Source of the DNA: Oleiharenicola lentus
GTDB lineage: Bacteria > Verrucomicrobiota > Verrucomicrobiia > Opitutales > Opitutaceae
Direction of reading: 5' to 3'
Assembly: GCF_004118375.1 (NCBI RefSeq)
Contig: NZ_SDHX01000002.1
Location: 1,291,001 to 1,355,000, forward strand
DNA: 64,000 bases
A program made the translations under genes and the position numbers. How positions within the stretch are numbered: position 1 is the stretch's first letter; each line of letters begins with the position of its first letter. Shown here piece after piece: positions 15,278 through 57,989 of this stretch. The notes beneath the pieces are model-generated. The model did no database searches. It saw only the letters and a list, made by a program, of their open reading frames with translations, and had not been told where the DNA came from.

Positions 15278-15490
15278 ACCCGGCGGCGAAAACCCCGGCG
15301 GCACGTTGCCCTGGCGGCCTTCGACGAGGATTTGGAGCAGTTGCGCGAGCGCGGTCTCGCGCGTGATGCCGCGCTCGGCCGCGAGCTGATCGGCGCGCTT
15401 CAGGAGCTGGCGCGCCATCGTCGCGGCCTGTTCGGGCGAGGCGCCGAGGCGCTCGCAGATGACGGTGATTTTTTTGACTTCGTCAGACAC
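15266..15490 (-). CDS. Small conserved helical protein, unknown function
   Basis: A 74-residue soluble protein (MSDEVKKITVICERLGASPE). Residues 1-60 are predicted helical with regular charge spacing, followed by a Gly/Pro tail. Its ATG overlaps the last 8 bases of the ygfZ gene, so the two are translationally coupled on the reverse strand. No family is recognised. It is supported by the coupling and by a composition unlike a shadow frame. Confidence 0.6.
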   Translation of the reverse strand: MSDEVKKITVICERLGASPEQAATMARQLLKRADQLAAERGITRETALAQLLQILVEGRQGNVPPGFSPPGSKQ

Positions 15491-16352
15491 GGCGGAGAAT
15501 TTTTATCCCGCGGCCATGCGGCGCGAGGCCGAGGGGTGCGGCGGGATCGAGATGCACGAGCGAGAGCATGGCCATCGCGAGAAACTGGCCGCCCTCTGTC
15601 GCGCCCGAGCGAACTTCGCCGGCTTTGCGTTCGCCCTGGAACAGCGCCGTGCCCGGCGCGGGCGGCGCACCGTCACCCTCGATCAGGTGCAACGCGCGCC
15701 GCACCTGGCCGAGGTTTTTCAACCGCGCGATGACTTCCTGCCCGAGGTAACAGCCCTTCGTGAAGGAAATCGCCACCTCGTCGAGCGCGCCTTCGGCGGG
15801 AAGGTCGCGCGGGCCGATGTCCGTCGGCACGGCGGGCAACGCGGCGCGCAAACGCGCGAGTTCCGCCGTGTTCCGATCCGCGGCCCCCGCAGCGGCGGAA
15901 AGCTGCGCCGCCACCTCGCTCGCGTGTGCGACGGGCACGATAATTTCCTGCGCCGGGGATCCCGCCCGGCGGCTGACGAATATCTGCGCTCCGGCAGGCA
16001 GCGTCAGGACGGGCGTCGCGCCTCCCCAGACGAGCCAGTTGGCCCACTCGGCCGTCTCATCGCGCAGTTCCACCTCGTCGGCGATCAAGTAGGCCTCGAG
16101 CCGCGCCAAGAGCACGGCGGCGCTGGCCGAAAAACAAATCACAAGGTAATCGTTGGCGGCCAATCGGATAACATGGCTGTCGGCCAGGACTTTGCCCTTC
16201 TGATCGAGCCACAATCCGTAGATTGCCCCCTTTTCGGCGAGTTTCAGATCCTGTGTGAACTGCCCCTGCAAATAGCTATTAGCGTCAGGGCCTTGAACGC
16301 GGAGGACAGCTGATGCGTTTTTTAAATCATTGGTTGGCAGATAGTAAATCAC
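15483..16352 (-). CDS. ygfZ: YgfZ/GcvT-like folate-binding protein
   Basis: A 289-residue protein of the GcvT fold used in iron-sulfur cluster assembly and repair. The N-terminal half has VQGPDANSYLQGQFTQDL and GLWLDQKGKVLADSHVI. The hallmark KGCYLGQEVIARLKNLGQVRR, with the conserved Cys, is at about residue 215. The start is GTG at 16352 (MIYYLPTND). It is divergent from the tandem RNA elements and the DAHP synthase gene, and followed by a coupled small gene. Confidence 0.92.
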   Translation of the reverse strand: MIYYLPTNDLKNASAVLRVQGPDANSYLQGQFTQDLKLAEKGAIYGLWLDQKGKVLADSHVIRLAANDYLVICFSASAAVLLARLEAYLIADEVELRDETAEWANWLVWGGATPVLTLPAGAQIFVSRRAGSPAQEIIVPVAHASEVAAQLSAAAGAADRNTAELARLRAALPAVPTDIGPRDLPAEGALDEVAISFTKGCYLGQEVIARLKNLGQVRRALHLIEGDGAPPAPGTALFQGERKAGEVRSGATEGGQFLAMAMLSLVHLDPAAPLGLAPHGRGIKILRRV

Positions 16353-16425: not shown

Positions 16426-16453
16426 TTGACGGAGCTAAGGAACCACGTATTCC
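16426..16453 (+). promoter_or_regulatory. Candidate promoter for the tandem RNA
   Basis: A TTGACG hexamer (16426-16431) and TATTCC (16448-16453) are separated by 16 bases. This would start transcription near 16460, just before the first RNA copy. The region is much more AT-rich than its surroundings. Confidence 0.4.
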
Positions 16454-16466
16454 TTCCGTTATCCAA

Positions 16467-16559
16467 TTTATCACTTCTCCCGCCTAGCGGGAGTTTTGGG
16501 GTAACTAAGAAAGCAATGGCCGGTCGTCTAGGGGTAGGCGACCGGCCTTTTCTTTGCCC
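16467..16559 (+). ncRNA. Candidate structured small RNA, copy 1 of a tandem pair
   Basis: A 93-nt element. It has a first hairpin CTCCCGC-CTA-GCGGGAG (16477-16493), a single-stranded linker with GGGGTAACTAAGAAAGCAAT, and a 13-bp terminator hairpin (arms 16518-16530 and 16535-16547, loop GGGG) followed by TTTTCTTT. Copy 2 lies 175 bases on and differs at five positions. Four of those are in stems and keep pairing: a C-G pair becomes A-T, a T-G wobble becomes T-A, and a C-G becomes T-G. It is AT-rich relative to its neighbours. No coding frame fits. It could be a free small RNA or a transcription attenuator for the aroG gene downstream. I do not recognise it as a known RNA family. Confidence 0.75.
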
Positions 16560-16641
16560 CAGTGAGGAAAAGGATGTTCTTACCAAAACCGCGAAGCACG
16601 TGAAGCAGCGCGGGAACAAAGGTTCGCCCCACCAGTCACAC

Positions 16642-16734
16642 TTTATCACTTCTCCTGCCTAGCGGGAGATTTGGGGTAACTAAGAAAGCAATGGCCGGTC
16701 GTATAGGGGTATACGACCGGCCTTTTCTTTGCCC
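16642..16734 (+). ncRNA. Candidate structured small RNA, copy 2 of a tandem pair
   Basis: The second 93-nt copy, 88 of 93 positions identical to copy 1. The first hairpin is CTCCTGC-CTA-GCGGGAG with one wobble. The terminator hairpin (arms 16693-16705 and 16710-16722) is a perfect 13-bp stem with loop GGGG and tail TTTTCTTT. It ends 70 bases before the GTG start of the DAHP synthase gene. The 82-base spacer between the copies is not repeated. No promoter is evident between this terminator and aroG, so aroG transcription may have to read through it. Confidence 0.75.
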
Positions 16735-16803
16735 AGGGCCAGAATGCGTCACGGGCAAGCCGAGGCTTGCTCCGCCCGGGGCGCTTCGCAGGGTTGGCCC
16801 CCT

Positions 16804-17859
16804 GTGCAGAAAACATCGGACATCAATGTCGTCGAGACGCGGGCCCTTCCCTCCCCGGCCGCCCTCCTGAAGGAAATCCCCAAAACCGAGGCCCAGGCCG
16901 AGTTCATCGCCAAGGCCCGTGCCGAAATCCACCGGCTCATTTTCACCGACGACAAGCGCTTCCTCCTGATCATTGGCCCCTGCTCGATTCACGATGTCGA
17001 CGCCGGCCGCGACTACGCCCGCCGGCTCGCCGCCCTCGCCCGCGAAGTATCCGACCGCATCATGATCGTCATGCGGGTGTATTTCGAAAAACCCCGCACC
17101 ACCGTCGGCTGGAAGGGCCTGGTGATGGACCCGCACCTCGACGGCTCGCACGACATCGCCGCCGGCCTGCGGCTTGGGCGCACCTTTCTCCGCGACGTGC
17201 TCGACCTCGGTCTGCCGACCGCCACCGAGTTTCTCGACCCGATCACCCCGCAATACGTGGCCGACCTCGTGTGCTGGGGCGCCATCGGTGCCCGCACGAC
17301 CGAGTCGCAGACCCACCGCCAGATGGCCTCCGGCCTCTCGATGCCACTCGGCTTCAAGAACGGCACCGACGGCTCGATCCAGACCGCCATCAACGCCATC
17401 AAGGCCGCCGGCCAGCCCCAGACCTTCCTCGGCATCAACCTCGACGGTGCCTCCTCGGCCATCGTCACCCGCGGCAATCCCAACTGCCACGTCGTGCTCC
17501 GCGGCGGCAGCGCGGGCCCCAACTACGCGCCCGACCACATCGCCCGCACCGAAGCCATCCTCGAGAAGGCCGGCCTGCCCAAGTCCATCCTCGTGGACTG
17601 CTCGCACGACAACTCCGCGAAGAAACCCGAGCTCCAGCCCGACGTCATGCGCGCGCTGCTCGCCCAGATCACCGCCGGCAACCGCTCCATCATGGGCGCC
17701 ATGGTCGAGAGCAACCTCGGCGCCGGCAACCAGACCTTCCCTCAGCCCAAGGAAAACCTGAAATATGGCGTGAGCATCACCGACGGCTGCATCGACTGGG
17801 CCGCAACCGAGGCCATGGTGCGCGAGATCTACGCCACGCAGGCCCCGCTCTTCCGATAA
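16804..17859 (+). CDS. aroG: 3-deoxy-7-phosphoheptulonate synthase, class I
   Basis: A 351-residue DAHP synthase. It condenses phosphoenolpyruvate with erythrose 4-phosphate as the first step of the shikimate pathway. Signatures are LLIIGPCSIHD, MRVYFEKPRTTVGWKGL, EFLDPITPQY, WGAIGARTTESQTHRQMASGLSMPLGFKNGTDG, HVVLRGG and DCSHDNSAKKP, all as in the E. coli AroF/G/H type. GTG 16804 (MQKTSDINVVE) was chosen because it aligns with the E. coli AroG N-terminus; an in-frame ATG at 16744 would add 20 unlikely residues. The leader carries two tandem terminator-bearing RNA elements, which suggests regulation by attenuation. Confidence 0.95.
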   Translation: MQKTSDINVVETRALPSPAALLKEIPKTEAQAEFIAKARAEIHRLIFTDDKRFLLIIGPCSIHDVDAGRDYARRLAALAREVSDRIMIVMRVYFEKPRTTVGWKGLVMDPHLDGSHDIAAGLRLGRTFLRDVLDLGLPTATEFLDPITPQYVADLVCWGAIGARTTESQTHRQMASGLSMPLGFKNGTDGSIQTAINAIKAAGQPQTFLGINLDGASSAIVTRGNPNCHVVLRGGSAGPNYAPDHIARTEAILEKAGLPKSILVDCSHDNSAKKPELQPDVMRALLAQITAGNRSIMGAMVESNLGAGNQTFPQPKENLKYGVSITDGCIDWAATEAMVREIYATQAPLFR

Positions 17860-57637: not shown

Positions 57638-57989
57638 GGGGGTGTTCCGGATTCGACCCTTGGTTGGAGTGCGCGGCTGCCTTTGGAGAGTCGGGGGACT
57701 CTCTTTAATCCACCCTCGAAAAAACAAACGGCAACAACGAAGAAATGCTCATGGCGGCTTAATGCCCGTCACGTTCTCACTCTGACTCCTGCTAGGGGCT
57801 GAGAACGACGACAGCAGGAATAGCGGTGAGGGCCATCGTGACCTCGCCGCCGTATCTTCAACCACGGTTGGCTGGTCGGGGAGCGCGCGTTGAAGCGCCC
57901 CGGTCGGCGAGATCAAACCAACGCTATAAAGGTAGATGCCGTGCGCGAAGGCCCGGGGCACAGGGGTTCAACTCCCCTCACCTCCACCA
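57638..57989 (+). ncRNA. ssrA: tmRNA (transfer-messenger RNA)
   Basis: A 352-nt one-piece tmRNA that rescues stalled ribosomes and tags the nascent protein. The 5' end GGGGGTGTTCCGGATTCGAC is the family signature. The acceptor stem is complete: GGGGGTG pairs with CACCTCC (57979-57985), then ACCA (57986-57989). The T-arm is CAGGGGTTCAACTCCCCT. The tag frame reads ACA-AAC-GGC and on to TAA at 57760-57762, encoding (T)NGNNEEMLMAA, with the hydrophobic LMAA end that proteases recognise. The exact resume codon (ACA at 57724 or the next) is inferred. A terminator follows at 58002. Confidence 0.96.

Follow-up and report, generated by a model that had tools for sequence, protein, structure and literature searches.

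A multicopy family of putative small RNA genes with a twin GGGGU motif and several promoter types in the Opitutaceae and sister families

Two tandem repeats in a 64,000-nt stretch of the Oleiharenicola lentus genome (hereafter the window) belong to a conserved, structured RNA family whose members carry a twin GGGGU motif and promoter-like elements far above control levels. Judging from sequence features, the two repeats are probably independent genes for one trans-acting multicopy sRNA of about 95-105 nt; transcription and action in trans are predictions. The RNA is laid out as a 5' hairpin, a linker with GGGGUAA that would be exposed, and an intrinsic terminator whose loop would present a second GGGGU. 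The features of the locus are as follows.

15483..16352, minus strand: YgfZ/GCV_T-like protein gene, divergent neighbour (Pfam GCV_T, 1.9e-14; conserved context)
16426..16453, plus strand: sigma70-type promoter of copy 1 (TTGACG 16426-16431, 16 nt, TATTCC 16448-16453)
16439..16463, plus strand: possible ECF-like promoter remnant of copy 1 (GGAAC 16439-16443, 16 nt, TATC 16460-16463; several same-genus relatives have AGTC there)
16467..16559, plus strand: putative sRNA gene, copy 1 (covariance-model matches of 113.6 bits and 98.4 bits with two models, fold, covariation)
16477..16493, plus strand: 5' hairpin of copy 1 (7 bp, 16477-16483 with 16487-16493, loop CTA)
16494..16517, plus strand: linker of copy 1 with the first GGGGTAA (GGGG 16498-16501), taken as single-stranded and nearly invariant in 47 homologues
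16518..16555, plus strand: intrinsic terminator of copy 1 (13 bp, 16518-16530 with 16535-16547; loop UAGGGGUA with the second GGGGU; T-run 16548-16555)
16613..16637, plus strand: ECF-like promoter of copy 2 (GGAAC 16613-16617, 16 nt, AGTC 16634-16637)
16642..16734, plus strand: putative sRNA gene, copy 2 (covariance-model match of 109.2 bits, fold, identity to copy 1)
16652..16668, plus strand: 5' hairpin of copy 2 (8 bp through 16651 and 16669)
16693..16730, plus strand: intrinsic terminator of copy 2 (loop UAGGGGUA, then a T-run)
16729..17859, plus strand: DAHP synthase gene, downstream neighbour (Pfam DAHP_synth_1, 1.3e-80; conserved context)

Tandem copies and structural conservation

An earlier sequence-only reading had placed a tandem repeat at 16467-16559 and 16642-16734, spaced 175 nt from start to start, and had described a 7-bp hairpin, a linker, a 13-bp terminator with a GGGG loop and five differences between the copies, all of which were reproduced. 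The copies were identical at 88 of 93 positions, and the match extended over 96 nt (16464-16559 against 16639-16734; 94% identity). The differences, copy 1 against copy 2, are C-T at 16481/16656, T-A at 16494/16669, C-A at 16528/16703, G-T at 16537/16712 and G-A at 16538/16713. Four of them lie in stems and, as had been claimed, pairing is kept, since all three affected stem pairs survive; nevertheless, only one pair is compensatory in the strict sense, being changed on both sides (C-G to A-U), and the other two change to or from G-U. The fifth difference, T to A at 16669, makes an eighth hairpin pair possible in copy 2.

The folding z-scores of the two copies were -5.3 and -5.9, and none of 200 shuffles of each was equally stable. 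Terminator-like signals were called on the plus strand at the hairpins of both copies, and also on the minus strand at that of copy 2. In the single-sequence fold of copy 1, part of the linker pairs with the 3' end. From the promoter placement, the true 5' end of copy 1 may lie a few nucleotides upstream of 16467. The listed start of the DAHP synthase ORF is mechanical and overlaps copy 2, and the real start is probably further inside.

The proposal of a structured RNA with compensatory change was borne out by an alignment of 47 homologues, in which 940 of 940 cells paired and 9 of 20 pairs were double-sided (shuffle mean 3.2; none of 500 shuffles as high). Sliding the partner by 1-3 columns in this alignment lowered pairing to 33-51%. 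Because hairpin 1 is nearly constant (six of seven pairs unchanged), the covariation evidence comes mostly from the terminator. In a wider set of 32 rows, 11 of 13 terminator pairs showed double-sided changes, 98.6% of 416 cells paired, and the covariation score was 0.577, compared with 0.165 in shuffles. Four same-genus rows with a one-base longer hairpin were left out of alignment A3 because the aligner shifted them; of the 21 sister-family copies, alignment A5 excludes seven that have an inner hairpin or a strongly diverged body and two that nearly duplicate others. Such an extra inner hairpin lies between the linker motif and the terminator in some sister-family copies.

The terminator loop was UAGGGGUA in 30 of the 32 rows and UUGGGGUA in the other two, with GGGG in all 32; the loop-side U-A pair was constant in 32/32 rows and the closing A-U in 30/32. 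GGGGUAA or a close variant was kept in the linker, and across the sister families this motif outlasts the wider linker. Loop A varies, so that the conserved sites are the GGGGU of the linker and that of the terminator loop. Among 81 paralogues and sister-family copies, weak matches included, GGGGT stood in the 3' hairpin loop of 80, and the linker carried GGGGT in 66, a near variant in 12 and neither in three, all weak matches; these counts are partly circular because the models that found the copies contain the motif, whereas no such circularity affects the contrast of freely changing stem and fixed loop.

Distribution and relation to known RNAs

Homologues were found by covariance-model searches, a check that the sequence-only reading had suggested. 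The first model, from 47 copies, was run on 288 genomes of the phylum and matched 25 of 25 genomes of the family and 16 of 18 in the rest of the order. Outside the order it matched 1 of 245, and this match (G257) was dropped as chance, its hairpin having no GGGG loop. The second model (R2), built from 32 copies of wider range, was run on 286 genomes of the class and matched 30/30 from the window's family, 21/22 from six sister families and 1/234 elsewhere. The lone outside match (G602, E = 0.009) is at chance level, since E-values are per genome and about three such matches are expected among 286 genomes. The sister families covered by the RNA models were f2-f6 and f62, in an order that also includes f106-f122. 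Moreover, a single copy used as query matched 197 of 200 same-family genomes at E <= 0.01, covering all 49 genera. A scan for the exact core returned at least 119 stretches and, among the matches listed, records were labelled Opitutus, Lacunisphaera, Cephaloticoccus, Ereboglobus, Didemnitutus and Rariglobus.

The pair of copies is real in the window, but the family is more than a pair: it is multicopy and has several promoter types. Model R2 matched one to seven loci per genome, and near-identical multiple copies occur in many genomes, not in all. Tandem arrays of two or three copies were found at L043, L045, L119, L120, L123, L128 and L232. As a defining trait, however, the tandem arrangement fails, because among 10 other same-genus genomes nine had one match and one had none.

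Within the window's own genome, BLAST returned the window copies as the only two strong matches and eight more at E > 0.3, which is chance level. One weak match, C1:363618, is probably a distant relative, with similar copies in two same-genus genomes. The three sites are L319:1501-1587 (minus strand; G000:C1:363618-363704), L126:4001-4083 (minus strand) and L325:3001-3089 (minus strand); they carry UUAGGGUAA, a terminator with a CAGGGGUG-like loop and an ECF-like promoter, and the L319 copy adjoins a tRNA-like stretch. The weak matches C1:196270 and C1:642946 were not convincing. The latter (L321, about 1501-1526; G000:C1:642946-642971) is a lone hairpin with the same UUAGGGGUAG loop and no T-run.

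A contig labelled Parcubacteria (L244, LBRC01000022.1) holds an Opitutaceae-like copy with no TTGAC upstream and with a same-genus-like downstream flank, possibly through misassembly. Two contigs of a bin labelled Akkermansia muciniphila (L282, CAMCZZ010000001.1; L300, CAMCZZ010000029.1) probably come from a mislabelled genome of the window's family.

The sequence-only reading had not recognised this RNA, and none of 4227 Rfam families reached its gathering score at this locus; at five loci with diverged copies, likewise, no Rfam family reached gathering score. The only weak match, with Rfam scanned to E 10, was suhB/mmgR (RF00519; 12.3 bits against a gathering score of 41, E = 8), which was rejected; the two RNAs have a two-hairpin outline and a U-rich end in common. 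The sole Rfam match at gathering score in the window was tmRNA at 57638-57989; this tmRNA gene lies on the plus strand and has the tag GNNEEMLMAA. Among the open-access papers listed, we found no report of this RNA or of regulatory RNAs of the group, and the main text of the ncRNA surveys among them did not contain "opitut".

In general build, the nearest known RNAs are multicopy sRNAs. LhrC1-5 of Listeria monocytogenes is described in the retrieved part of PMC4132741 as a stress-induced multicopy sRNA of 111-114 nt that binds mRNA through a repeated single-stranded or loop motif. Near-identical copies in many genomes and a motif repeated in a single-stranded stretch and a loop are shared with our RNA; by the same partial account, however, the LhrC motif is UCCC/CU-rich and also occurs in loop A, and all five copies need LisRK, whereas the Opitutaceae sRNA is G-rich, has two sites and has several promoter types. 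A second parallel is FopS/GibS of Bacteroides, multicopy paralogous sRNAs that appear with the RRM protein RbpB in the sections of PMC11697453 available. Paralogous copies are common to both cases and, as in Bacteroides, RRM proteins are encoded and Hfq was not found in the window genome; FopS differs in its length (about 65-70 nt), 5' seed and sigmaABfr promoters according to those sections, and the two RNAs are set side by side by description, not by sequence. We regard the Opitutaceae RNA as a new putative sRNA family whose general kind is known; its G-rich twin motif and its range of promoter types are unusual.

Genomic context and promoter-like elements

The commonest setting (class A) is between divergent YgfZ-like and DAHP synthase genes, often with malate dehydrogenase next. 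With paralogues and sister families included, the DAHP synthase cluster was present at 34 and the YgfZ cluster at 32 of 104 clustered loci. Class B, 11 copies in 10 loci, lies directly upstream of a PIN-PhoH gene; the window genome has no copy between its small upstream ORF and phoH. The nine copies of class D lie about 50-185 nt downstream of a GH3-family gene in 8/9 loci; in the ninth (L326), a 6-kb stretch contained no GH3 gene, and a sigma54-type promoter was present. The eight GH3-linked copies (L327-L333 and L339) each have a sigma54-type promoter as well. In one sister family, the sRNA lies between DciA/thymidylate synthase and DNA polymerase IV genes. Beside these genes, L120:4001-4640 (minus strand) holds three copies in a row, two of them with the inner hairpin.

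These settings bear on whether the RNA could instead act in cis on the DAHP synthase gene, which belongs to aromatic amino acid synthesis, as a leader or attenuator whose terminator would open in response to a signal. The RNA does immediately precede that gene in many loci of class A, and within the window's family a same-strand downstream gene is often present in class A. However, copies also stand before PIN-PhoH genes, after GH3-family genes and before genes on the opposite strand. In 10 of 17 sister-family loci, counted manually on a mechanical gene map, the next downstream gene was on the opposite strand. In addition, the terminator stem changes pair by pair, and inspection by eye showed no corresponding change in other parts of the aligned RNA, so that a conserved antiterminator partner is not apparent. 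We therefore regard a leader as very improbable. Because promoter and terminator are free-standing, neighbours vary and no antiterminator is visible, a trans-acting RNA is the most likely reading.

That the repeats are mobile or REP-like DNA elements, rather than RNA genes, is less probable still and in our view hardly credible. They are multicopy and contain hairpins, as such elements would, but they keep a strand-specific order of promoter, hairpin, linker, terminator and T-run, occupy fixed places beside the same genes across genera, and had no match in plasmids, phages or viral contigs (the last scanned for the exact core only).

The promoter patterns, drawn up after inspection of some of the same upstreams, were counted in 141 distinct upstream regions against 18,092 control windows from the same loci. 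TTGAC (sigma70) was present in 84 (5.8 expected), an ECF-like pattern in 18 (0.49 expected) and the sigma54 pattern TGGCA-N7-TGC in 12 (0.21 expected); since the upstreams share ancestry, this excess does not tally independent events. TTGAC was also present in 6 of the 18 ECF-like and 2 of the 12 sigma54-like upstreams, and 35 of the 141 fit none of the three patterns. The ECF-like pattern was defined as GGAAC, GAA(A/C/T)C or (C/T)GAAC, then N16, then (C/A)GTC. The tally omits upstreams shorter than 80 nt, duplicates, G257 and the weak matches L334, L336 and L337. It replaced a looser tally of 124 upstreams, in which TTGAC was counted 81 times against 10.1 in shuffles and the ECF-like pattern 22 times against 1.6.

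The sigma54 pattern follows the known consensus, and CGTC is known as an ECF -10 element. Of the 11 class B copies, 8 have the ECF-like pattern, and all 9 class D copies have the sigma54 pattern. For the -35 box, the consulted portion of PMC8103513 gives GGAACTT (RpoE) and ATTGAAACCTTT (SigW). A sigma54 gene is present in the window genome. The promoter types are pattern matches from which we infer the acting sigma factors. Members of the family would thus share one RNA but be switched on by different sigma factors (housekeeping, ECF-type and sigma54), in which case several signals would feed one regulator. At the sequence level, own promoter and own intrinsic terminator give the members the makeup of stand-alone sRNA genes. 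If the assignments hold, the sigma70, ECF-like and sigma54 copies would offer a clear example from nature of several signals that converge on a single RNA.

The two window copies differ in this respect. At the places that match the sigma70 elements of copy 1, copy 2 has GTGAAG (16600-16605) and GTTCGC (16622-16627). Among the 142 distinct upstreams of strict-core copies, 140 had TTGAC, the exceptions being window copy 2 and L311. In the same genus, TTGAC and GGAAC-N16-AGTC occur together on one copy at L012, L016, L020, L021, L183 and L187. The simplest reading would be that a dual promoter was divided after duplication, so that in the window housekeeping input would come through copy 1 and ECF input through copy 2; if true, the tandem would be a case of promoter splitting after duplication. 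Against this, other genera have the spacer GGAAC with AATC, so mere clade inheritance may be involved; the same-genus relative L011 has TATC, as copy 1 does; and the AGTC overlaps with ATCA, a sequence often present close to the expected start.

A rather unlikely alternative is that copy 2 is a decaying duplicate with no function or promoter of its own. It lacks TTGACG and the matching -10, and the rarity of upstreams without TTGAC among strict-core copies fits decay. However, its RNA keeps all pairs, including the two-sided change, although the upstream has diverged to near random: 55 of 94 columns agree in an alignment of the two 85-nt upstreams (shuffle mean 48.8, maximum 56 of 300). RNAs that are 95% alike below upstreams near shuffle level point to selection on the copy 2 RNA, or to gene conversion. 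Copy 2 also retains GGAAC-N16-AGTC, as do L012, L016, L020 and L021. In the close relative L303, a single copy combines the copy 1 upstream with the copy 2 terminator; as L303 is a metagenome bin, this chimeric copy may be a collapsed repeat.

Possible modes of action

For a trans-acting RNA, its LhrC-like build leads us to lean towards base-pairing through GGGGU(A). We tentatively propose, by analogy with LhrC and at slightly less than even confidence, that the GGGGU(A) sites pair with C-rich (UACCCC-like) mRNA sites, using G-rich seeds and no Hfq. Hfq was found in none of 70 genomes of the order, including the window's, in a search whose control was detected in 5 of 14 named genomes. Being near-universal and having two fixed motifs, the RNA would offer a direct way into sRNA action in a group without recognisable Hfq, and could serve to capture its partner.

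Tests for target sites on this basis were weak and returned no positive result. TACCCC was not enriched in 540 start regions, mostly of genes neighbouring the RNA (16 occurrences, rank 16 of 30 permutations), and several longer matches were the RNA itself read backwards. GTTACCCCAA, the perfect antisense to the linker, had 70 sites in 13 same-genus genomes compared with 40 for the reversed control, and the RNA genes account for part of this surplus. When 30 of the 70 loci were inspected, seven were the RNA, and none of the other 23 recurred at a gene start. A resemblance between the linker and the 3' end of the 16S was weighed by eye only and dropped.

The main rival to base-pairing, possible but less probable, is a sponge, in which an RNA-binding protein would be captured at the two GGGGU(A) sites, much as CsrA is by CsrB/RsmZ. 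Displaying one short motif twice, here in a linker and in a loop, is characteristic of titrating RNAs, and titration explains the repeat equally well as base-pairing does. Across the sister families the motif is kept better than the linker around it, which also fits a protein site. The candidates would be RRM proteins: the window genome, in which alone RRM genes were sought, encodes three RRM_1 proteins (L162:1285-1728, minus strand; L163:1339-1725, minus strand; L164:1345-1824, plus strand), two of them with long glycine-arginine-rich tails, and no Hfq was found there. Titrating RNAs with a repeated motif are also discussed in the portion of PMC4132741 that was available, and RbpB, an RRM protein, binds multicopy sRNAs in Bacteroides (PMC11697453, in part). 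Furthermore, UUAGGGGUA contains UAGG and would thereby resemble the preference of human hnRNP A1, both RRMs of which prefer UAGG, with the SELEX motif UAGGGA/U (PMC5503513, from the excerpt retrieved). On the other side, the main-class linker motif UUGGGGUAA has no AG core, and RRM specificity is not readable from these sequences.

A more inclusive model, which we consider unlikely, would make the family an order-wide, Hfq-free hub. Paralogous twin-GGGGU RNAs, driven by different sigma factors, would titrate or load hnRNP-like RRM proteins, and the window duplicate would have split a dual promoter (sigma70 to copy 1, ECF to copy 2) with compensatory changes holding the RNA constant.

The CsrB/RsmX-Y-Z RNAs carry a repeated short motif in loops and linkers and are encoded by several redundant genes. 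The Opitutaceae sRNA differs from them in that its loop does not present GGA but is GGGG closed by A-U. The window genome does have a CsrA gene, and the ORF adjoining it is one that, by eye, we take to be FliW-like.
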